A stretch of 64,000 nt of DNA from assembly GCF_018449605.1 (NCBI RefSeq), contig NZ_JAAVUW010000008.1, forward strand, positions 124,001 to 188,000. The letters run 5' to 3'. The translations under genes and the position numbers were made by a program. The notes beneath the pieces are model-generated. The model was given only the letters and a program-made list of their open reading frames with translations, was not told where the DNA came from and searched no databases. The DNA comes from Luteibacter sp. dw_328. Its GTDB lineage: Bacteria > Pseudomonadota > Gammaproteobacteria > Xanthomonadales > Rhodanobacteraceae. This document shows, piece by piece, positions 19,523 to 43,557 of the stretch (within the stretch, counting starts at the first letter, position 1; every line of letters starts with the position of its first letter).

Positions 19523-19596
19523 TGGAGCGGGTGAAGGGAATCGAACCCTCGTCAGTAGCTTGGGAAGCTACAGCTCTACCATTGAGCTACACCCGC
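19523..19596 (-). tRNA. tRNA-Gly (anticodon CCC)
   Basis: On the minus strand a complete cloverleaf can be drawn: acceptor GCGGGTG/CACCCGC, D-arm GCTC-AATGGTA-GAGC, anticodon stem GTAGC/GCTAC with loop TTCCCAA (anticodon CCC), T-arm AGGG-TTCGATT-CCCT, discriminator T and an encoded CCA at 19525-19523. Length 74 nt including CCA. Its 3' end points toward the nuclease-domain gene. Confidence 0.96.
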
Positions 19597-33733: not shown

Positions 33734-34420
33734 ATGAATACGATCATCCCCGCGCCGGCCCAGCCGAGCATCCCCGTCCTCGGCCAGACTGCGCGTTTTC
33801 CGGTCCGCCGTATTTTCTGCATCGGCCGTAACTACGCCGACCATGCCCGTGAAATGGGCGCGTCGGTCGACATGTCGAACCCGATGTTCTTCACCAAGCC
33901 GGCCGATGCCATCGTCACCGACGGCGCCGACGTGCCCTACCCCTCGGCAACCAGCGATCTCCACCACGAAGTGGAAATGGTGGTGGCCCTGGGCGCCGGC
34001 GGTTCGGACCTTTCCGTCGAGCAGGCCGGCAAGCTGGTCTGGGGCTACGGCGTCGGCCTGGACCTGACCCGCCGCGACCTGCAGGCGCAGGCCAAGGCCA
34101 AGGGCGCACCGTGGGATGTCGCCAAGGGCTTCGACCATTCGGCTCCGATCTCGGCCCTGGTGCCGGCGTCGGAAGTCACACCGACCTCGTCCACCCGTAT
34201 CGCGCTGGAGATCAACGGCGAACTGCGCCAGGAGGCCACGTTGGGCGACATGCTCCTGGACGTGCCCGCCATCCTCAGTGCGCTGTCGAAGCTGTTCGAA
34301 CTGAAGGCCGGCGACATCGTCTACACCGGCACGCCGGCAGGCGTCTCCGCCCTCGTGCGCGGCGACACGTTCCGTGCGACCCTCGACGGCGTCGCGACGC
34401 TCGAAGGCCGGGTCAGCTGA
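33734..34420 (+). CDS. Fumarylacetoacetate-hydrolase-family enzyme (YcgM-like)
   Basis: A 228-residue single-domain member of the FAH family. It has the opening RIFCIGRNYADHAREMG, the metal-site block DLHHEVEMVVALG, and KGFDHSAPIS and IVYTGTPAGVSAL at the usual places. Relatives hydrolyse fumarylpyruvate or acylpyruvates, or tautomerise oxaloacetate; the sequence does not decide which. There is no strong ribosome site before the ATG. It is followed by mscL 71 bp downstream. Confidence 0.9.
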   Translation: MNTIIPAPAQPSIPVLGQTARFPVRRIFCIGRNYADHAREMGASVDMSNPMFFTKPADAIVTDGADVPYPSATSDLHHEVEMVVALGAGGSDLSVEQAGKLVWGYGVGLDLTRRDLQAQAKAKGAPWDVAKGFDHSAPISALVPASEVTPTSSTRIALEINGELRQEATLGDMLLDVPAILSALSKLFELKAGDIVYTGTPAGVSALVRGDTFRATLDGVATLEGRVS

Positions 34421-34491
34421 CTTCGCGAAGTGCCGACATCCGTCCCGCTAGTTTCCAACGTTCCACGTTCAGCCAATAAGGAGAAAGACCG

Positions 34492-34899
34492 ATGAGTTTC
34501 GTCGCGGAATTCAAGAAATTCGCTCTACGCGGTAATGTCGTCGACCTGGCGGTCGGTGTCGTGATCGGTGCGGCATTCGGCAAGATCGTTACCTCGCTCG
34601 TCGACAACATCATCATGCCGCCCATCGGCTGGTTGATCGGTGGCATCGATTTCTCCGACTGGAAGTGGGTGCTCAAGCCCGCCGATGCGGTTGCCAAGAA
34701 AGCCGAGGTCGCGATCCAGTACGGCGTCTTCATCAACGTACTCATCCAGTTCCTGATCGTCGCCATCGCGATCTTCGTCGTGGTCAAGGCGATCAACCGC
34801 CTCACCCGTCGCGAGGAAGAAGCCCCGGCTGCGCCGGCGGCCGACGTTGTACTGCTGACGGAAATCCGCGATCTGCTTCGTTCGCAGCAAGGGAAGTGA
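34492..34899 (+). CDS. mscL: Large-conductance mechanosensitive channel MscL
   Basis: A 135-residue channel that opens at high membrane tension and rescues cells from hypo-osmotic shock. The invariant N terminus [24 protein letters not shown] and the TM2 block [27 protein letters not shown] are complete, and the C-terminal bundle ([15 protein letters not shown]) is typical. AAGGAG lies 8 bases before the ATG. A REP-like element begins 11 bp after its stop codon. Confidence 0.97.
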
Positions 34900-34910
34900 G
34901 CTTGACGCAC

Positions 34911-35061
34911 TTGTAGGAGCCGCTTCAGCGGCGAACCCTCAGCGGTGATATTGCGAATGAGGGTTTGCGTTTCATCGTGGGAGCTGCTCAACCGCTCGCC
35001 CAATCACCGCAATGCCTCGTTCGCAAGCGCGACAATCCGAAGGTTCGCCGCTGGAACCTAC
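34911..35061. repeat. Composite palindromic REP-like element, copy 1
   Basis: The left arm starts TTGTAGGAGCCGCTTCAGCG and runs on as GCGAACCCTCAGCG; the right arm (35042-35061) carries the inverted, degenerate form GGTTCGCCGCTGGAACCTAC. Inner arms GCGAATGAGGG and CCTCGTTCGC are also inverted, so the whole ~150 bp can fold into one long interrupted hairpin. A second copy lies at 43400-43557. It is non-coding and directly downstream of mscL. Confidence 0.8.
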
Positions 35062-35083
35062 GCCTGCGCAGCGAGCGATCCGC

Positions 35084-35119
35084 AAAAAAAAGAGGCCGCC
35101 GATTGGGAATCGGCGGCCT
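35084..35119 (-). terminator. Rho-independent terminator of the TonB receptor gene
   Basis: A perfect 12-bp stem (AGGCCGCCGATT/AATCGGCGGCCT, loop of three) is followed on the minus strand by a run of eight T. It lies about 103 bp downstream of the receptor stop codon. This is the clearest intrinsic terminator in this half of the window. Confidence 0.93.
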
Positions 35120-35221
35120 ATCTGGGGAGACTCGTTATGCCCGGGAGTTGAGCCGTCACCGGCTCGGGCACTTATTATTGGTATTCGGGTAGTTTGTGGT
35201 CAGCGTTGAACACGGTCGTTA

Positions 35222-38200
35222 TCAGAAGTCGTAGTTGATGCCAAAGCGGACATAACGCGGCTGGCTGAAGTACGTGACCTTGTCGTAGTTGATATTGGGC
35301 GTGGTCGAGCTGCCGGCAATCACGTACGTGGCAGTCGGGACGGATTCGCCCAATGCGTTATAGACCATCACATTGAAGCCAAGTTTCTGGTTGGCCCACA
35401 TCGGACGATATTCCGCCGAGAGCGAAACAATGTGCTGCCAGGGCTGGCGACCGGCGGCACCCGGTGAAGACGGAAGACCGTCACAGTAGTGGTAGTAGCT
35501 GCCGTACCCCACCGGATTGCTTTCATCCGCACCGTAGTAACCCAGGCAGGTCTTCGGCGTGCCAGACATGATCGCGATGTTCGCCGACAGCATCCATTCC
35601 TTCGCCGCTTGCCACGAGCCGTAGATCTTGAGTTGGTGCTTGCGGTCGTTGGAGAGCAGGCCGTTGGAATTCTCCATCAGTTTGCCGAAGTCCCAGTCCA
35701 CCGTCGCAGACACGTCGGTCTGGTCGATATCCGAGCGAACCTGGCCTTCCGTGTCGCCGTAGCTACGCGAGAAGACATAGTCCACCTTGGCCTGCCACGT
35801 GCCGTCGAATGGATGCTCGAGGAACGTTTCCAGCCCGTAGTAGCTGCGCTTTGCCTTTGGCATGCCGAAATCGTCCGCCGACACGCTGACGCTGTTGTAA
35901 CCGCCGGCACCATCCGGGATACGGTAGGTGTTGCTTCGACCCGGGTTCGACAGATAGCAACCATTGAGTTGGCTGGCATCGACGGCGTAGCCGAGCGAGT
36001 TCGCCTTGGCGGTGATCGTGTCGGTGTCGCAGATATCGTCGAGGATATTGCGCAGCTTACGTACCTGCGCCTTCATGCCCCAAACGTAATCCGGGTTGAT
36101 CTGCTGCGTAAAGCCCAGCAGATACTCATCCTGGTATTCCGACTGGATGTTGCTGGCGGCGACGGTCTTCGCATCCGGCGACTGGCCGTACTCGTTGTTC
36201 GCCGACACCGCGCCACCCGTCGCCGAGGCAAGCTGGGTCAGGCCGGTTGGATTGCCGTTACCGTCGATACCGGTATAGGTGTAGTACTCGTTCGTGTACA
36301 GCGAGCCAGCAGCGGCGCGAAGGGCAACCGAAGCAGGCATGGCGAGGTAGTAACGACCAGCATTGCCGTAGACCTTGAGGGTGGAGTCGCCGTTCACGTC
36401 CCAGCTGAAGCCGAGTCGCGGAGCCCACTGCGGCTTGGTCATGCGCAGGAAAGCGTCTCCGTTCGGGTTGTAGTTGGTGAACTGGTCGTTGCGCAGGCCG
36501 ATCTTCACCAACCAGCGATCATCCACCTGCCAGCTGTCTTCGATGTACTGCGCGCGCTGCTTCACGCGAACCGAGGCGGCGGTATCGTAGAGATACTTCG
36601 AGACGTAATAGCCGTCTTCTCCGCCGGCACCTGTATTGGGCGCGGCCACGTAGGGGCTGTCACTGATCGCGGTGCCAGGGTCGCCGGAACCATAGTCCCA
36701 GGCCGTAGCGGTCTGACCATCGTCAATGTCGTGCGAGTTGAGGTTATCGATACCACCGGTGATCGTGTGGTCGCCGATCTTCCACGAAAGATCGATGCGC
36801 AGATTATTCGTCGTCGCCCGGTGGCTCGGGTCGTTGGCCGTCAGCACCGTCTGCGAATTGACGATGGGGTTGCCGCCAGTAATGCCGGGGTTCTCGAACT
36901 CGGACCCATTGATGTACGTCAGCGTCGGATCGTAGCCCGGCGTTTCGCTGTAGTACTTCATCTTCTGCTTGCCGTAGAGGGCGGTAAGCGTCAGGTCGTC
37001 GGTGATGTAGCTGGTGAACTTGGCAACGTAGACATCGGCACTGTTCTTCGTCGACGTGTCGTAGCTGTTCAGGGCGCCGGTGGTGTTGGTTGCATAGTCG
37101 TAGTCGTAGAGGTTGCCCTTGTACGAATGCTTCTGCGATGCGCCTGTCAGTTCGAGGATATTGTTGTCGGTGATGTTCCAGTCGACCTTCGAATACCATT
37201 TCGGATTGTGATATTCGTACGCCGTGTTGTAAGACGAGGTCACGGCGCCAACGCTGTCGCCGACGTTCTTCGATTGCTCGACGGCGGCGAAGAAGAACAG
37301 TTTGTCCTTGATCAGGGGACCGCCGACATACGCGCTTTCGGTGGTCGTCCACGACGTGTTGTTCGAGTAGCGACGATAGATGTCGCCCGCACTGGCACCC
37401 GAGACGTAGTACGAGCTCGGACTGACGCCTTCGAGCGAGGCCGGCGACCACTGCACCTGCGCGCCGAAATGCCACTCGTTCGTCCCGCGCTTGCCGCTCT
37501 GGCTGATGACGCCGCCGTCGGAACGACCATAGGCCGCACCGTAGCCGCCGCTGAGGATTTCCTCCTGGTCGATGGCGCCGTACGGCAGGCTGATGCCGCC
37601 AAAGCCGCTCAGCGGATCCGTCGTGTTGAAACCATTGAGGTAATAGGCGTTCTCGGTGACCGACGAACCGCTGAACGAGACCAGCGAGCCACCCGACGTA
37701 TTGCCCGTGAAGCCGCTGTAACCCGGCACGACACCCGGCGCGAGCAAAGCGATCGCTTCGGCGCTACGCGAGAGGGGAAGCTTCGCCAGCTGCTCGGAGG
37801 TGATCACGGTACGCGAGTCGACGCTCGTCACGTCGATGGCCGGCAAGGCATTGGCTGAAACGGTGACCGAGCCGAGGCTCGTGGCGGCCCCGGTAGCGGC
37901 GGCGAAGGATACTTCCGTACCCGAACCGACCCGTAGCGCGACATCGTTACGTGCATCGACGGCCTTGCCGCCCTGCATGAGCGCTACGGTGTATGACCCC
38001 AGCGGCAGCGAGCCGATGCTGTAGCGACCGTCCGCACCCACCGCCACTTCACGCGTCAGGCCCGACGAGCTCTTCGCCTGTACCGTCTCGCCTTCGGCGG
38101 CAGGCGCCTGGCCGAAGATGCTACCGGTGGTCGACTGGGCGATGGCCCCTGCGCTTCCGAGGGCCACGCCGAGCGCAAGGCTGATCCGGCTTAGGCGCAC

Positions 38201-38224
38201 CCATTGAAGTTTATTGATTCGCAC
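35222..38224 (-). CDS. TonB-dependent receptor, Oar-like with N-terminal carboxypeptidase-regulatory-like domain
   Basis: A 1000-residue outer-membrane receptor. A signal peptide (about 1-31, ...LALGVALGSAGAIAQ) is followed by a beta-sandwich domain (about 32-105, YSIGSLPLGSYTVALMQGG), a plug (about 120-240, with LPLSRSAEAIALLAPGVVPGYSGF and FGGISLPYGAIDQEEIL) and a 22-stranded barrel ending in VRFGINYDF with the C-terminal Phe of outer-membrane proteins. Such Oar-like receptors take up large or unusual ligands in Lysobacterales; no ligand is implied. I chose the GTG at 38224 because GGGGAG precedes it; a start 12 codons earlier is less likely. The AraC gene is 98 bp upstream on the same strand. 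Confidence 0.92.
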   Translation of the reverse strand: MRINKLQWVRLSRISLALGVALGSAGAIAQSTTGSIFGQAPAAEGETVQAKSSSGLTREVAVGADGRYSIGSLPLGSYTVALMQGGKAVDARNDVALRVGSGTEVSFAAATGAATSLGSVTVSANALPAIDVTSVDSRTVITSEQLAKLPLSRSAEAIALLAPGVVPGYSGFTGNTSGGSLVSFSGSSVTENAYYLNGFNTTDPLSGFGGISLPYGAIDQEEILSGGYGAAYGRSDGGVISQSGKRGTNEWHFGAQVQWSPASLEGVSPSSYYVSGASAGDIYRRYSNNTSWTTTESAYVGGPLIKDKLFFFAAVEQSKNVGDSVGAVTSSYNTAYEYHNPKWYSKVDWNITDNNILELTGASQKHSYKGNLYDYDYATNTTGALNSYDTSTKNSADVYVAKFTSYITDDLTLTALYGKQKMKYYSETPGYDPTLTYINGSEFENPGITGGNPIVNSQTVLTANDPSHRATTNNLRIDLSWKIGDHTITGGIDNLNSHDIDDGQTATAWDYGSGDPGTAISDSPYVAAPNTGAGGEDGYYVSKYLYDTAASVRVKQRAQYIEDSWQVDDRWLVKIGLRNDQFTNYNPNGDAFLRMTKPQWAPRLGFSWDVNGDSTLKVYGNAGRYYLAMPASVALRAAAGSLYTNEYYTYTGIDGNGNPTGLTQLASATGGAVSANNEYGQSPDAKTVAASNIQSEYQDEYLLGFTQQINPDYVWGMKAQVRKLRNILDDICDTDTITAKANSLGYAVDASQLNGCYLSNPGRSNTYRIPDGAGGYNSVSVSADDFGMPKAKRSYYGLETFLEHPFDGTWQAKVDYVFSRSYGDTEGQVRSDIDQTDVSATVDWDFGKLMENSNGLLSNDRKHQLKIYGSWQAAKEWMLSANIAIMSGTPKTCLGYYGADESNPVGYGSYYHYCDGLPSSPGAAGRQPWQHIVSLSAEYRPMWANQKLGFNVMVYNALGESVPTATYVIAGSSTTPNINYDKVTYFSQPRYVRFGINYDF

Positions 38225-38244
38225 TTTTAAACACTCCCCAGAGA

Positions 38245-38312
38245 ACGTGGCAATCCCCACGACCTCAATTTAGTGTTAAGACGACGTTCGCATGCGGCCG
38301 AAAGTGCCACGT
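38245..38312. promoter_or_regulatory. Inverted pair ACGTGGCA / TGCCACGT in front of the TonB receptor
   Basis: ACGTGGCA at 38245-38252 and its exact reverse complement at 38305-38312 lie 60 bp apart between the AraC stop codon and the receptor start. AraC-family regulators often use paired, distant half-sites. The distance is close to a whole number of helical turns (6 x 10 bp). Its use by the neighbouring regulator is inferred from position. Confidence 0.35.
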
Positions 38313-38322
38313 AACTTGACTA

Positions 38323-39291
38323 TTAATCGGACGTATGGACGTCCGTAATCGCTTTCGCCGTATGACTTCCGTCGAGGACAGCCTGGCGGTATCCGCGCGG
38401 GGAAACACCGAAAATGTCGCGGAATGAACGACTGAAGTGGGTCATGTCGCCAAAGCCCCAGGACTGAGCTATCTGCGCGATACTGCGGTGACGCAATGCG
38501 GGATCCGCAAGTTCACGACGGCAACGCGCGATTCGCTCGGCACGTACCCAGCGCATCAGGGTCAGCTTTTCGTCGGCAAACAGCTCGAAGAGGTAGCTAG
38601 GCGAAAGTCCCACGCCAGCGCCGATCATTTCCACGCATAGCTTCGGGTCGGCAAGATGATCCCGCGCGAAGCGGCGTACCTGCTGTTTGTACTGCTGTCG
38701 AAGTTGCGATGGCGAAGCCTCCACCGAAACCATCGACTCGAAGGCAGCGGCAAGCATGTGCGGGACGGCATCCGCCACGCGGTCGGCCACGGCCTCGGTG
38801 AGCTCGGAGGCATGCGCGAACAGTTCCTGGAAGAGAACACGCAGATAGCCGACGGCACTGAGGTGTCCGTGAAGGCCGACCGCCGACATCTGGTCCAGCC
38901 GCGGCATCGTCTCCCGCAAGGCGGCCAACGGCATGTAGAGCGTCTGTACCGTGGATTGATGGGTCTGCAGGCGAAAGGGACGGGACAGATCGATCAGGCA
39001 GAAATCCCCCGGCGAGATGTCGCCGCGACGGCCGTGTTGTTCCACCGATGCGCTGCCCTCCAGGTGGTGGCTGAGCAAGGCGGCGCCTCGGTGAATTCGC
39101 GCCACGTTGTCGCCGGTCAGGATATGCGGCGCATGGCGGAAGGTTCCCAGCCGAAGGCGCTCCCCGGCGTAGCCGTCGAGCATCACGCTCATGCCTTGCC
39201 GCTGGCAGACGCTTTGCCAGAAGGTCCGGGCAGCGACAGTTCCGCCCTGGGCACCCGGGAGCGGCGATGAATCCTGGAACTGGGTCGACAA
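38323..39291 (-). CDS. AraC-family transcriptional regulator
   Basis: A 322-residue regulator. The N-terminal ligand/dimerisation domain (about 30-215) has the pattern of the FeaR/NphR-type AraC-binding family (ISPGDFCLIDLSRPFRL; TLYMPLAALRETMP). The C-terminal double helix-turn-helix (about 220-315) reads LCVEMIGAGVGLSPSYLFELF and IAQIAQSWGFGDMTHFSRSFRDIFGVSPRGYR. It begins with TTG after AAGGGAG at a 10-base distance; a start at MSVMLDG, 33 codons later, would cut the domain. The gene is followed by the TonB receptor on the same strand, the most likely target. Confidence 0.88.
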   Translation of the reverse strand: MSTQFQDSSPLPGAQGGTVAARTFWQSVCQRQGMSVMLDGYAGERLRLGTFRHAPHILTGDNVARIHRGAALLSHHLEGSASVEQHGRRGDISPGDFCLIDLSRPFRLQTHQSTVQTLYMPLAALRETMPRLDQMSAVGLHGHLSAVGYLRVLFQELFAHASELTEAVADRVADAVPHMLAAAFESMVSVEASPSQLRQQYKQQVRRFARDHLADPKLCVEMIGAGVGLSPSYLFELFADEKLTLMRWVRAERIARCRRELADPALRHRSIAQIAQSWGFGDMTHFSRSFRDIFGVSPRGYRQAVLDGSHTAKAITDVHTSD

Positions 39292-39310
39292 CGGAGGCTA
39301 ACTCCCTTGA

Positions 39311-39613
39311 TCAGCGGATCGGGCGGCGCGGCGGGGGCCCGCCGTCCGGGCCTGGCGGTGGACCGGGCGGTGCATCGAAGCCCTTGTCGTCCATGCACAG
39401 GTCCATCAGGTCGGCATCGACGCCGTCATCCGGGTCGTCCGCCTTGCCATCGATGTCGATCCAGCAATCGTCCAGCGCGGCCGCGAGCTGCGGGTCCTGG
39501 GGCAGCGGGGCGCGCGGCGGCTCCTGCGCAGCGGCAACCGCCGCTAGCGCCGTGCCGAAAGCGAACAGCAGGGAGGGCAGCGTGGGAAAGGGCTTCATGC
39601 GTTGGATATCCAT
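39311..39613 (-). CDS. Small exported acidic, proline-rich protein
   Basis: A 100-residue protein with a signal peptide (MKPFPTLPSLLFAFGTALAAVAAAQ if begun at the second Met, 39598). The mature part is about 70 residues, very acidic in its middle (WIDIDGKADDPDDGVDADLM, then DLCMDDKG), with two cysteines, and ends in a Pro/Gly tail (GPPPGPDGGPPPRRPIR). The Asp-rich stretch looks like a Ca2+ or other metal-binding loop. It is transcribed away from a two-component system; their common 127-bp region holds three direct repeats. The sensor kinase has a similar Pro/Gly/Asp-rich periplasmic stretch. Function unknown; a regulated periplasmic metal-responsive protein is a reasonable guess. Confidence 0.7.
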   Translation of the reverse strand: MDIQRMKPFPTLPSLLFAFGTALAAVAAAQEPPRAPLPQDPQLAAALDDCWIDIDGKADDPDDGVDADLMDLCMDDKGFDAPPGPPPGPDGGPPPRRPIR

Positions 39614-39658
39614 GGACCGACGTTGAAGCCAAACTAAGGGGCGCCCGTCACCACCGGT

Positions 39659-39685
39659 TGTCCGTGTGTGTCCGGTTTGTGTCGG
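39659..39685. promoter_or_regulatory. Three direct repeats TGTCCG/TGTCGG at 10- and 11-bp spacing
   Basis: TGTCCG starts at 39659 and 39669 and TGTCGG at 39680, each preceded by T/G-rich sequence. The helical spacing on one face is the classical layout of OmpR-family response-regulator sites. The block ends 5 bp before a candidate -35 box of the two-component operon and lies about 45 bp upstream of the acidic-protein start, so it could serve both promoters. Confidence 0.55.
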
Positions 39686-39690
39686 GTTTT

Positions 39691-39719
39691 TTGCCGGGCT
39701 GACAAACGCGCCGTAGACT
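39691..39719 (+). promoter_or_regulatory. Candidate sigma-70 promoter of the two-component operon
   Basis: TTGCCG (39691-39696), a 17-bp spacer and TAGACT (39714-39719), four of six matches each. The predicted start near 39726 leaves a leader of about 15 bases before the ATG at 39741. The direct repeats directly upstream suggest activation by the encoded regulator. Confidence 0.45.
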
Positions 39720-39740
39720 GGTCTGGTATCAAGCTATCGC

Positions 39741-40460
39741 ATGGCCATGGATCTCCAGTCGCTCATCCTTGTCGTCGACGACGACCCCGAACTGCGCCGC
39801 CTGATCACGGCGTTTCTCGGTGGTCACGGCTATAGGGTGCAGGCGGCTGAGAATGCCCTGCAGATGAACCTGGCGATCGAGCGTGAGCGTCCCGATCTGG
39901 TCGTACTCGACGTGATGATGCCGGGAGAGGACGGCCTGAGTGCCGCCCGCCGCCTGGCCGCGGACAAGGGGCCGCCGGTGATCATCCTCAGCGCCCTGGG
40001 CGGCGATACCGACCGCATCATCGGCCTGGAGGTCGGGGCCGACGATTACCTCGCCAAGCCCTGCAATCCGCGCGAACTGCTCGCGCGCGTGCGTGCGGTA
40101 TTGCGCAGAACCGGCAACAGCGAACCGGTAGCGGTCGAGGATGCACGCCCCTACGGCTTCGCCGGCTGGCGCCTGGACGTGACCCGCCGCGACCTGCGCG
40201 ATCCCACGGGCATCTTCATCAACCTGTCCGACGGCGAGTTCGCTCTGCTGCGAAGCTTCGTCGAGCATCCGCAACGCATTCTCAGTCGCGACCAGCTGCT
40301 CGACCTTGTGCATGGCGGGCGCTCGGAAGTATTCGACCGCGCGATCGACACCCAGATCAGCCGTCTGCGACGCAAACTCAACGACCGCGTGCACGAGGAG
40401 ATGATCCGCACCGTGCGCAACGAGGGCTACATGCTGGTCCCCAGGGTGTCGCGCCTGTGA
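39741..40460 (+). CDS. OmpR-family response regulator
   Basis: A 239-residue regulator: receiver with D13/D14/D15, phospho-acceptor D57 (LVVLDVMMPGEDGL) and the KPCNPRELLARV block, then a winged helix (about 140-235) with LSDGEFALLRSFVEH, DRAIDTQISRLRRKL and VRNEGYMLVPRV. The last bases overlap the start of the kinase gene (GTGATG), so they are coupled. It probably regulates itself and the divergent acidic-protein gene through the direct repeats between them. Confidence 0.93.
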   Translation: MAMDLQSLILVVDDDPELRRLITAFLGGHGYRVQAAENALQMNLAIERERPDLVVLDVMMPGEDGLSAARRLAADKGPPVIILSALGGDTDRIIGLEVGADDYLAKPCNPRELLARVRAVLRRTGNSEPVAVEDARPYGFAGWRLDVTRRDLRDPTGIFINLSDGEFALLRSFVEHPQRILSRDQLLDLVHGGRSEVFDRAIDTQISRLRRKLNDRVHEEMIRTVRNEGYMLVPRVSRL

Positions 40461-41848
40461 TGCATCTGTCCCGCCTTTCAATCTTCTCCCGCACGTTCCT
40501 CATGATGATCTGCGCGGTACTGGTCGCCGCGGCGATCGGCTTTGCCGTGCTGTTCATCAGGCCACCCTCGCGCCTTTCCGCCGTGAGCCTGTTCGAACTG
40601 GCGGCCGTGCTGCAGCCGGAAACCTCGCCCTTCGGCAACCGGCCTTTCGGCGCACAACACCCCTTCCCCGGCGAAGGCGGCCCGCCGCCGGGCGCCGATT
40701 TCGACCGCGGCGGCGACGCCGACCTGGAGGTCGCCACGATGCCGGGCCCGCCAAGCGCCCCGGCCTCATTCGACGAGAAAGGTTCCGAACGCATCGCCAT
40801 GCACGTGGCGGACATGTTCAAGGTATCCAGCGACCAGGTTCGCGTGTTCATTACCGAGCACGACATGCCCGGCGCGCATGGCCCGATGCGCCTCGGTCTC
40901 GGAGGCGGCTCGGTGGTCGCTCTGAAGCAAGCGGACGGCCGCTGGCGCGTGGCCACCGTTCCGGTCGAGTCGTTCCCCACCGTGCTCCAGCAGCAGGTCT
41001 TCCTGTTACTCGCACTCGGCATCCTCGTCCTGCTGCCTCTCGCCTTCCTCTTCGCCCGCGCCCTTGCCGCACCGATCCGGCGTTTTTCAGAGGCCGCACA
41101 GCGGCTGGGCAGCGACACCAGCGCGCCGCCCGTCGTGCGCGAAGGGCCGCCAGAGATGCGTCAGGCCGTCGACTCCTTCAACGCCATGCAAGCGCGGATC
41201 AATCGCTTGCTGCAGGAGCGGACGCAAATGATCGCAGCGATCGCGCACGACTTGCGCACGCCGCTCACACGTCTCACCTTCCGCCTGGATGGACTGCCCT
41301 CGCCGCTCGCGGAGAAAGTCGACGCCGACATCCAGGAGATGAAGGCGATGATTTCCGCCGCGCTCGATTTCATTCGCGACCGTTCCCTCGGTGTGCATCG
41401 CCAGCGCCTGGACGTCCGATTGCTGGTAGAAAGCGTCGTCGACGACCTGGCCGACATCGGCCACGACGTGACCGTACAGGAGGGTTCGGCCATCACGATC
41501 GAGGGGGACCCGATCGCGCTGCGTCGCGCGGTGGTGAACCTGGTGGAGAACGGATTGAAATACGGTGAACGCGTGCGGCTGCGACTGCGTAGCACCGGCG
41601 ACGGCTGCATCCTGGAGATCGACGACGATGGACCGGGTATTCCCGAAGCCATGCAGCAGCAGGTGTTCGAGCCGTTCTTCCGCCTCGAGGCCTCGCGCAA
41701 CCGCGACACCGGTGGGATCGGCCTGGGACTGGCCACCGTTCGTGCGATCGTCCTGGATCACGGTGGCACCGTGACGCTGCGCAATCGCAAGGATCGAGGC
41801 CTTCGCGCCGTGGTGAGCCTGCCCGCCACGGCGCCTCCAGGCAGCTGA
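40457..41848 (+). CDS. Sensor histidine kinase with Pro/Gly/Asp-rich periplasmic loop
   Basis: A 463-residue inner-membrane kinase. Transmembrane helices lie at about 12-34 and 180-203. The sensor loop between them begins with a flexible Pro/Gly/Asp-rich part at about 57-100 (GEGGPPPGADFDRGGDADLE), followed by a small folded domain at about 108-170. HAMP, then the HisKA box IAAIAHDLRTPLTRL with His264, N box LVENGLKY, G1 DDDGPGIPEAM and G2 GIGLGLATV. It begins with GTG 40457 or ATG 40460 overlapping the regulator stop. The Asp-rich loop suggests a cation-type signal, an inference only. Confidence 0.92.
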   Translation: MMHLSRLSIFSRTFLMMICAVLVAAAIGFAVLFIRPPSRLSAVSLFELAAVLQPETSPFGNRPFGAQHPFPGEGGPPPGADFDRGGDADLEVATMPGPPSAPASFDEKGSERIAMHVADMFKVSSDQVRVFITEHDMPGAHGPMRLGLGGGSVVALKQADGRWRVATVPVESFPTVLQQQVFLLLALGILVLLPLAFLFARALAAPIRRFSEAAQRLGSDTSAPPVVREGPPEMRQAVDSFNAMQARINRLLQERTQMIAAIAHDLRTPLTRLTFRLDGLPSPLAEKVDADIQEMKAMISAALDFIRDRSLGVHRQRLDVRLLVESVVDDLADIGHDVTVQEGSAITIEGDPIALRRAVVNLVENGLKYGERVRLRLRSTGDGCILEIDDDGPGIPEAMQQQVFEPFFRLEASRNRDTGGIGLGLATVRAIVLDHGGTVTLRNRKDRGLRAVVSLPATAPPGS

Positions 41849-41871
41849 GCCTGGCCATCCATGACTTCCTA

Positions 41872-41897
41872 CCTACGCGGGAGCACCCTCGCGTAGG
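41872..41897 (+). terminator. Hairpin after the two-component operon
   Basis: An 8-bp perfect inverted repeat (CCTACGCG/CGCGTAGG, loop of ten) lies 23 bp beyond the kinase stop codon. No U-run follows; instead CATAAT at 41900-41905 could be the -10 box of the peptidase gene. Termination strength is therefore doubtful. Confidence 0.4.
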
Positions 41898-41931
41898 GTC
41901 ATAATCGACCTTTCCGTCCCCGGGGGTCCCC

Positions 41932-43374
41932 ATGCGCCATACGCTTCGTCTCCACGCGCTCGCCGCGTGCCTTGTGCTCGCCTTTTCCGCCCATGCCGCC
42001 GACAAGGCCACGACGATTCCGGACAAGGCCGTGACCGCGGCGACCGAACTGCGCGACCGCGCAATGAACGACAACACGGGCTATGAGTTCGTTTCCGCAC
42101 TCACCACCGAAGTCGGCCCGCGCCTCGCCGGTAGCTCCGCCGACGCCCGCGGCGTCGCGTGGACCGTCGCGAAGTTCAAGGCGATGGGCTTCGACAAGGT
42201 CTACACCGAGAAGGTGAGCTACCCGCTGTGGCAGCGCCGGAGCGAGCATGGCGCGATCGTCGCACCCTTCCCGCAGCCGCTGGCGCTCACCGCGCTCGGC
42301 TATTCCGCAGGCACCCCGGCTGGGGGCCTCACCGGCGAAGTCGTCGCCTTCAACGACCTCGACGCACTCAAGGCGGCGGATCCGTCGACCGTCAAGGGCA
42401 AGATCGTCTACGTCAGCACCCACATGCAGCAGCAGAAAGACGGTCACGACTACGGCCTGGGTTCGGCCACGCGTACCCACGGCGCCGTGCTCGCTGCCCA
42501 GATGGGTGCTGCCGCCTACCTGCTCCGCTCCGCCGGCACCGATGCGCACAGCCGCACGCCGCACACCGGCGTCACCGGTTTCACCGACCCGAAGCAGGCC
42601 ATCCCCGCCGCCGCCCTCTCACTGCCCGACGCGGACCAGCTGGAGCGCGTGCTGAAGGAAGGCAAGCCGGTCACGCTCAAGCTCGATCTCGATGTCGGCT
42701 TTGCCGGGACATACGAAGGCGCGAATGTGATCGCGGAAGTCACCGGTCGTAAATACCCGAACGAAGTCGTCGCTATCGGCGGCCATCTCGATTCATGGGA
42801 CCTGGGCACTGGTGCGATCGATGATGGTGCCGGCGTTGCCATCGCCGCCGCAGCCGCAAAGCTCATCAAGGACATGCCGCAGCGCCCGGACCGCACCATT
42901 CGTGTCATCGCGTTCTCGAACGAAGAAATGGGTTTGTGGGGTGGCCGCGCTTACGCCGAGGCCCATGCGAAAGAGGTGGCGAAGTTCCAGCTAGGCACCG
43001 AGTCCGACTTCGGCGCCGGACGCATCTGGCGCATGAGCGCGAGCGTGAAGCCCGAAGCCCTCGGCGCGATCCAGCAGATTGCGAAGGTGGTCGAGCCGAT
43101 CGGTGTCGCCTACGACGCCAGCAAGCCCGGCGGCGGCGGCTCCGACCTGTCGCAGATGCACGGCAAGGGTATGGCCGCCCTGTCGCTCACGCAGGACGGC
43201 ACGGACTACTTCGACTACCACCACAACGCTAACGACACGCTCGACAAGATCGATCCGAAGGCGCTGGCGCAGAACGTGGCGGTGTATGCGACGTTCGCTT
43301 ACATGGCGGCGCAGGCGAATGGCGACTTCGGCTCGAAGCCGGGCGCGTTCGCGAAGGATGGCGCACACGATTGA
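41932..43374 (+). CDS. Exported M28-family metallopeptidase
   Basis: A 480-residue secreted or periplasmic aminopeptidase-like enzyme with a signal peptide (MRHTLRLHALAACLVLAFSAHA). A PA-type insert domain (about 130-240) precedes the catalytic part, whose zinc ligands and acids are seen in GGHLDSWDLGTGAIDDGAGV (His, Asp), FSNEEMGLWGG (catalytic Glu and ligand), GTESDFGAG (Asp) and DYHHNANDTLDKI (His). This arrangement matches bacterial carboxypeptidase Q/M28 enzymes. GGGGG lies 5 bases before the ATG. It ends just before a REP-like element and is convergent with the RND operon. Confidence 0.93.
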   Translation: MRHTLRLHALAACLVLAFSAHAADKATTIPDKAVTAATELRDRAMNDNTGYEFVSALTTEVGPRLAGSSADARGVAWTVAKFKAMGFDKVYTEKVSYPLWQRRSEHGAIVAPFPQPLALTALGYSAGTPAGGLTGEVVAFNDLDALKAADPSTVKGKIVYVSTHMQQQKDGHDYGLGSATRTHGAVLAAQMGAAAYLLRSAGTDAHSRTPHTGVTGFTDPKQAIPAAALSLPDADQLERVLKEGKPVTLKLDLDVGFAGTYEGANVIAEVTGRKYPNEVVAIGGHLDSWDLGTGAIDDGAGVAIAAAAAKLIKDMPQRPDRTIRVIAFSNEEMGLWGGRAYAEAHAKEVAKFQLGTESDFGAGRIWRMSASVKPEALGAIQQIAKVVEPIGVAYDASKPGGGGSDLSQMHGKGMAALSLTQDGTDYFDYHHNANDTLDKIDPKALAQNVAVYATFAYMAAQANGDFGSKPGAFAKDGAHD

Positions 43375-43399
43375 TCCATGCCGAAGCACGCCGCAGCCC

Positions 43400-43557
43400 T
43401 GTAGGAGCCGCTTCAGCGGCGAACCCTCAGCGATGATGTAGCGAGAGAGGCTTTGTGTTGACTCGGGCGACGGTTTAACCGCTTGCGTGATCAGGGCAAA
43501 GCCTCACTCGCAGATCGGTTGAGCTGAGGGTTCGCCGGCACAGCCGGCTCCTACAAC
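43400..43557. repeat. Composite palindromic REP-like element, copy 2
   Basis: The left arm TGTAGGAGCCGCTTCAGCGG runs on as CGAACCCTCAGCG, almost identical to copy 1. The right arm (about 43524-43556) is its full inverse, CTGAGGGTTCGCC then GGCTCCTACAA. Inner arms GCGAGAGAGGCTTT and AAAGCCTCACTCGC pair as well, so the 158 bp forms one long hairpin. It fills the gap between two convergent genes and may also end both transcripts. Confidence 0.85.

Follow-up and report, generated by a model that had tools for sequence, protein, structure and literature searches.

Small envelope proteins of the CpxP-CpxA, Spy, or MgrB type are encoded beside, or are controlled by, two-component systems. Among the operators of PhoB/OmpR-type regulators, the pho box has CTGTCAT repeated every 11 bp. 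For many TonB receptors of the Xanthomonadales, to our knowledge, neither the substrate nor the trigger is known. In Xanthomonas campestris, the excerpted account of VgrS/VgrR describes direct control (repression) by VgrR of the TonB-receptor gene tdvA, along with hundreds of other genes, and an ExxE motif in the periplasmic sensor of VgrS (PMC5231390). In Myxococcus xanthus, the TonB transporter Oar is needed for the export of the protease PopC, a 50.8-kDa protein without a signal peptide (PMC6434023, in excerpt). Here we describe a five-gene cassette, under 7 kb in length, in a 64,000-nucleotide stretch of the genome of Luteibacter sp. dw_328 (NZ_JAAVUW010000008.1, positions 124,001 to 188,000; hereafter the window, whose own numbering we use). 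The cassette consists of genes for a TonB-dependent receptor, an AraC-family regulator, and a small exported protein, in that order, followed by a divergent response regulator and sensor kinase. A first-pass annotation of the window had considered only the small gene and the two-component pair.

In certain soil bacteria, the five genes are kept together across genomes, with the small gene as an optional member, and two non-coding sites are conserved along with them. The genes and the two sites are:

35222-38260, minus strand: TonB-dependent receptor with plug and barrel (PF07715, 40.8 bits, cut-off 23.9; PF25183, 73.9 bits, cut-off 30)
38265-38279, minus strand: conserved element TTAACACTAAATTGA between the AraC and receptor genes, proposed as the receptor promoter or an AraC site
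38323-39291, minus strand: AraC-family regulator (AraC_binding_2 and HTH_18), 19 bp after the small gene
39311-39613, minus strand: open reading frame (ORF) of the small exported protein, 100 amino acids, whose Pro-rich tail follows a core with CM..KGF and two invariant Cys
39659-39683, plus strand: triple direct repeat TGTC-N6-TGTC-N7-TGTC, proposed as the site of the response regulator
39741-40460, plus strand: OmpR/PhoB-type response regulator (Pfam PF00072, 100.1 bits; PF00486, 78.7 bits; both above cut-offs)
40457-41848, plus strand: EnvZ/CpxA-like sensor histidine kinase (HAMP 38, HisKA 30.1, and HATPase_c 91.2 bits, all above cut-offs)

An orthologue of the kinase (E ≤ 1e-100) is found in 15 of 233 genomes of the family. 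All 15 have the four large genes together, and in all 14 loci other than the window's the order receptor-AraC-regulator-kinase is the same. Orthologues of the AraC regulator (E ≤ 1e-60) are found in 16 of the 233 genomes, which are the 15 kinase genomes and G007. Receptor-type proteins are common (122 of 233 genomes at E ≤ 1e-250), and the form that is 78-92% identical to the window's receptor is found in 15 other genomes; the form at or above 78% is confined to the 16 genomes with the AraC orthologue. Among the matches listed, the next receptors are 72% (G136) and 68% (G126) identical. Neither of these two genomes has an AraC orthologue, and we saw no AraC-like neighbor of the receptor in them. 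The element TTAACACTAAATTGA has a single match in each of 16 out of 16 loci (no mismatches in 6, one in 5, two in 4, and three in 1). An exact 18-base pattern is found in 8 of 21 genomes, and each time at the cassette. Of the 16 genomes with the cassette or part of it, 8 have the pattern, as against none of the 5 without. The AraC and receptor genes, which the earlier annotation overlooked, belong to the unit.

The small gene was found in 11 of the 14 other loci by tblastn and in one more (G198) from its reading frame. With the window, this makes 13 of 15 cassettes, and in all 13 the gene is at the same position. The expected pairing of the small gene with the two-component system is thus seen in most cassettes and fails in G021 and G005, where the small gene is absent. 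In these two genomes, the AraC gene adjoins the divergent region and the repeats are retained, which fits with a divergent promoter that also serves AraC. Because the rpoB tree groups G005 with G019, which has the small gene, and places G021 elsewhere, two separate losses are likely.

The three TGTC cores start at 39659, 39669, and 39680, or 10 and then 11 bp apart, as the first-pass annotation had reported. It had named a lack of conservation in related species as the finding that would count against it; the repeats are kept in all 15 cassettes, exactly in 14 of them and with one substitution in the third core in G014. They form a direct repeat of the OmpR-family kind and are also the best-kept part of the 127-bp gap: among the 103 intervals of 25 bp, the one that starts at the first repeat has the highest mean identity (0.87; the median is 0.73). 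The strong triple site looks local to the cassette, a statement that covers the exact triple, plus the window's own letters at two mismatches. Elsewhere in the 15 cassette genomes the exact triple has 4 matches, as compared to 6 for a reversed-pattern control, and the window's genome has 1 match in total. We rejected a wide regulon, as besides this 1 match in the window's genome the two-mismatch search gave just one more, with scant likeness.

A GACA core, the reverse complement of TGTC, lies at 39701-39704, 17 bp past the last repeat core; by eye, 10 of the 15 cassettes retain it. Possibly, it is an inverted fourth half-site. Two candidate promoter elements lie in the same gap:

39691-39719, plus strand: −35/−10 of the regulator-kinase operon as first annotated, TTGCCG-17-TAGACT, weak and lineage-restricted
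39724-39732, plus strand: alternative extended −10 candidate TGGTATCAA, with TGNTAT in 14 of 15 cassettes (by eye) and a putative function

The annotated promoter is present with the spacing that was claimed for it: TTGCCG (39691-39696) begins 5 bp past the last repeat and is separated by 17 bp from TAGACT (39714-39719). It is weak, with 8 of 12 consensus bases by our own count where the scanner's threshold is 9, and its −10, as TA[AGC]ACT, is present in 9 of 15 cassettes (by eye). TGNTAT sits 10 bp beyond this −10.

The ORF at 39311-39613 is a real coding gene under purifying selection, because 13 members (including the window's) can be aligned and because pairwise comparison of G000, G010, and G006 (three pairs) gives ratios of nonsynonymous to synonymous substitution rates of about 0.10-0.18, the differences being mainly at third codon positions. 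The true start is likely to be at 39598 (MKPF...), which is favored by conservation. From this start, the protein has a signal peptide that ends in AxA-Q (a signal-peptidase site by reading), which leaves a mature chain of about 71 amino acids. The earlier annotation gave 70; its coordinates for a small exported gene that is divergent from the regulator and kinase were right, as was its spacing of the repeats. The alignment has 13 invariant columns, among them two Cys, CM, KGF, and three Pro, and in all 13 members the tail after KGF is rich in Pro and Gly (a combined fraction of 0.40-0.71). The structure model has a mean predicted local distance difference test (pLDDT) score of 62.6, with helices at residues 41-57 and 67-76, and the ten-residue blocks from residue 41 onwards score 84, 72, 69, and 83. 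The protein may fold as a helical hairpin that is held by a Cys bond and followed by a flexible, Pro-rich tail.

The small protein appears to be a family without prior description. As the first annotator had recognized no described family, so we found no match for the window's protein in Pfam or NCBIfam. A scan of all 13 members gave isolated matches, each to one member only: five families in Pfam (best E of 0.004) and one in NCBIfam (0.0052). We take these matches to be due to chance. Profiles of the small-protein core and of the kinase sensor had no match among PDB sequences at E up to 1, plasmid and phage collections gave no match to the small protein, and none of 22 viral-contig stretches encode a relative. 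In evenly drawn samples, a profile of the 40-position core identified 12 of 398 genomes of the order at E ≤ 0.001 (11 kinase genomes and the distant G452) and 3 of 369 genomes of the class at E ≤ 0.01 (the window's genome and two matches that we rejected). As relatives we rejected G030 (E = 0.006), where the match is the beginning of a longer ORF whose repeats read as PDZ-like; G688 (E = 4.6e-4), where the match is inside a 255-amino-acid ORF without the Pro-rich tail; and G533 (E = 0.0025), which has two internal stops. The ORF in G452 (same order, E = 4e-4; L087 1486-2178, minus strand) is lipoprotein-like and has two Cys-pair units that are split by Pro/Gly-rich stretches. It may be a true distant relative, and Cys-pair modules of this sort are perhaps a wider family. 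In the 3.1 kb seen of this locus, none of the ORFs reads as a two-component gene.

We propose that the cassette is a self-contained unit for signaling and transport, with the small protein as an optional envelope accessory of the sensor or the receptor. Judging from the arrangement and conservation of its parts, we give this reading an even chance. The kinase would sense a signal in the envelope or from outside. The phosphorylated regulator would bind the triple TGTC site and activate transcription in both directions, of its own operon and of the operon of the small gene and AraC. The AraC regulator would then turn on the TonB receptor via the second conserved site. The small protein would enter the envelope in the first wave. 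We consider it an accessory because it can be lost while the other four genes persist, and it probably serves those four genes because it is found only with them (G452 is a doubtful exception). We lean slightly towards a modulator of the sensor, so that there would be feedback in function, and not by way of a conserved acidic cation site.

Several observations weigh against this proposal. The small gene is missing in 2 of 15 cassettes, so the other four genes do not need the small protein. A contact between the sensor and the small protein finds no support in the sequences, as the score of the sensor loop is at the level of shuffles (see below). The hairpin model is weak (mean pLDDT of 62.6), and the promoter scanner reported no promoter. 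Finally, a terminator-like match at 39670-39687 (plus strand) overlaps the repeat, and the region has 3 such matches, versus 1.2 ± 1.0 in shuffles. We set aside the idea that this is a terminator rather than an operator, as the conserved cores are better suited to direct repeats.

The first-pass annotation had instead proposed a cation-sensing feedback module built on an acidic protein and a similar loop in the sensor, the former competing with the latter or reporting to it. The divergent arrangement is conserved, and the small protein is acidic in all 9 Luteibacter members (12-15 Asp plus Glu between the signal peptide and KGF), five of which have an Asp-rich tail. However, the 4 members from Pinirhizobacter and Rhodanobacter have only 4-8 Asp plus Glu, and therefore we reject cation binding as a trait of the family; within Luteibacter it is a possibility. 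The details agree with this division. Only G000, G010, and G006 carry the Asp-rich stretch DIDGKADDPDDGVDADL; at that place the other six from Luteibacter read DDPV, and five of these six have an Asp-rich C-terminus; and the four members from other genera have neither at the corresponding places. Also, the invariant columns of the 13 members include no Asp and no Glu, which is not what a conserved set of acidic ligands (EF-hand or another acidic cation-binding site) would look like. As for the matching loop, the part of the sensor in question is this insert:

40625-40717, plus strand: residues 57-87 of the kinase, a Pro/Gly-rich insert within its periplasmic sensor, of variable length in the alignment, with pLDDT below 50 in a weak model

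The best local alignment of the small protein and the sensor loop scores 42, which is equalled or exceeded by 181 of 1,000 shuffles of the small protein, so we reject a specific match; the likeness is compositional. Also, the two kinases without the small gene keep the insert, with a Pro plus Gly fraction of 0.43 (G021) and 0.34 (G005), as compared to 0.34-0.57 in nine others (4 of the 15 rows have no value). The loop match was not borne out, and the module as first proposed seems very unlikely.

We give more weight, while still considering it rather unlikely, to the small protein as a partner of the receptor: the Oar-like receptor would take it through the outer membrane, or it would deliver a bound nutrient to the receptor, and the sensor would merely report. 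Of the cassette genes on the same strand as AraC and the receptor, the small gene comes first, at a distance of 19 bp from AraC, and all 13 small genes are in cassettes with the receptor. An Oar receptor is needed for protein export in Myxococcus, as the excerpt of PMC6434023 has it for PopC, but PopC is a 50.8-kDa protein with no signal peptide. Also, G021 and G005 keep the receptor and AraC although the small gene is absent. A bolder version, which strikes us as improbable, is that the Oar-like receptor has the small Cys-pair protein as its cargo or carrier and that the kinase reads the passage or return of this protein, in a closed, protein-based loop of scouting or scavenging that is gained or lost as a unit. 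It is similarly improbable that the small gene is just one more target, encoding an envelope protein with a purpose of its own and no contact with the sensor or receptor. Its absence from G021 and G005, which retain the other four genes and probably lost it independently, would fit with this. On the other hand, the position of the gene within the cassette does not vary, and the core profile finds the protein only in kinase genomes (in the samples of 398 from the order and 369 from the class), apart from possibly G452.

Returning to the cassette as a unit, in Luteibacter it lies between a gene at 34413-35003 and one at 41932 for an M28 peptidase. All 23 Luteibacter genomes have this peptidase. 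The site is filled in 11 of them (both flanks in 10, including the window, and the peptidase side alone in G021). In the other 12 it is empty, with the matches to the flanking genes 88-472 bp apart and no match to a cassette gene in the extracted stretches. These filled and empty sites provide a natural comparison for the substrate, the signal, and the role of the small protein. In Pinirhizobacter and Rhodanobacter the outer neighbors differ: for Pinirhizobacter and two of the Rhodanobacter genomes, a search next to the cassette found neither the peptidase nor the RND genes, and in G215, the third Rhodanobacter, the contig ends within the kinase. A urocanate hydratase-like gene (hutU by reading) lies past the receptor end in two Rhodanobacter and one Pinirhizobacter (L233 5189-6874, L235 6230-7927, and L237 4435-6105).

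G007 is the odd case. Its usual site is empty, and the receptor and AraC genes are on a separate 5.3-kb contig (L127 1-5345), which cuts AraC near its start, so that the presence of the small gene cannot be judged. The receptor of G007 groups with that of G005 (support 1.000), and rpoB groups G007 with G015 (1.000). This genome is 80% complete and 3% contaminated, and a second insertion or contamination is possible. More broadly, the rpoB and cassette trees could fit either vertical inheritance, with the cassette lost many times, or horizontal transfer of the unit. The cassette tree rests mostly on the regulator, kinase, and receptor, as AraC was found in two genomes only for this purpose and the receptor of G003 was missed. 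We also rejected a link to mobile elements: besides the lack of small-protein matches in the plasmid and phage collections, the sole tRNA in the window is at 19523-19596, and no Rfam family was found at 34000-43500.

The Pfam domains bear out the reading of the plus-strand genes as a response regulator and kinase. The kinase is below the NCBIfam equivalog cut-offs (EnvZ, 193.7 bits against 415; CpxA, 177.9 against 486; RstB, 169.2 against 478), and its closest named match is from Luteibacter sp. OK325 (85% identical). The kinase structure model is weak (mean pLDDT of 54.3). For the AraC regulator, the best NCBIfam match is FeaR, at 133.6 bits against a cut-off of 199, so it does not qualify as FeaR. 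The AraC alignments of G010, G198, and G215 (L106, L118, and L119) were each reported with one internal stop, possibly a start-site effect. We label the build of the receptor Oar-like, on the assumption that an N-terminal CarboxypepD_reg extension marks such receptors. The match to this domain is weak (PF13620, 28.0 bits, below the cut-off of 32.3). The true start of the receptor is probably downstream of 38260.

How does the cassette compare to the known systems? Like CpxP, Spy, and MgrB, the small protein is an envelope protein that is encoded beside a two-component system. Unlike them, it has a Cys-pair core and a Pro-rich tail, and its gene is linked to those for AraC and a TonB receptor. 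The likeness to CpxP/Spy that was first suggested does not extend to the family level: in a scan at E up to 5, none of the 13 members matched the CpxP/Spy Pfam profile, whose name we take to be LTXXQ. The TGTC cores every 10-11 bp resemble PhoB/OmpR operators, except that here there are three cores, the spacing is 10 and then 11, and the exact triple is found at one locus in the window's genome. As in VgrS/VgrR-tdvA (PMC5231390, in excerpt), a two-component system is linked to a TonB-receptor gene. The differences from that account are that here the exact site is local, AraC and small exported genes are added, and no ExxE motif was seen by eye in the periplasmic sensor of the window's kinase. 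The likeness to Oar is in a TonB receptor with a plug and a possible N-terminal extension, and in a possible route for protein export. The excerpt on Oar (PMC6434023) does not mention a two-component/AraC cassette, and the cargo there is a 50.8-kDa protease without a signal peptide. In Luteibacter sp. 9143, an upregulated kinase is clustered with a sugar epimerase gene (PMC9040847, in excerpt), and our cassette does not contain such a gene. Our literature searches met no cassette of a two-component system, a TonB receptor, AraC, and a Cys-pair exported protein, which is not proof of its absence from print. Relative to these systems, the cassette is made of known parts, with an undescribed small family and a new local wiring: in less than 7 kb, one receptor is joined by a sensor of its own, a pair of regulators, two conserved sites for control, and an exported protein.

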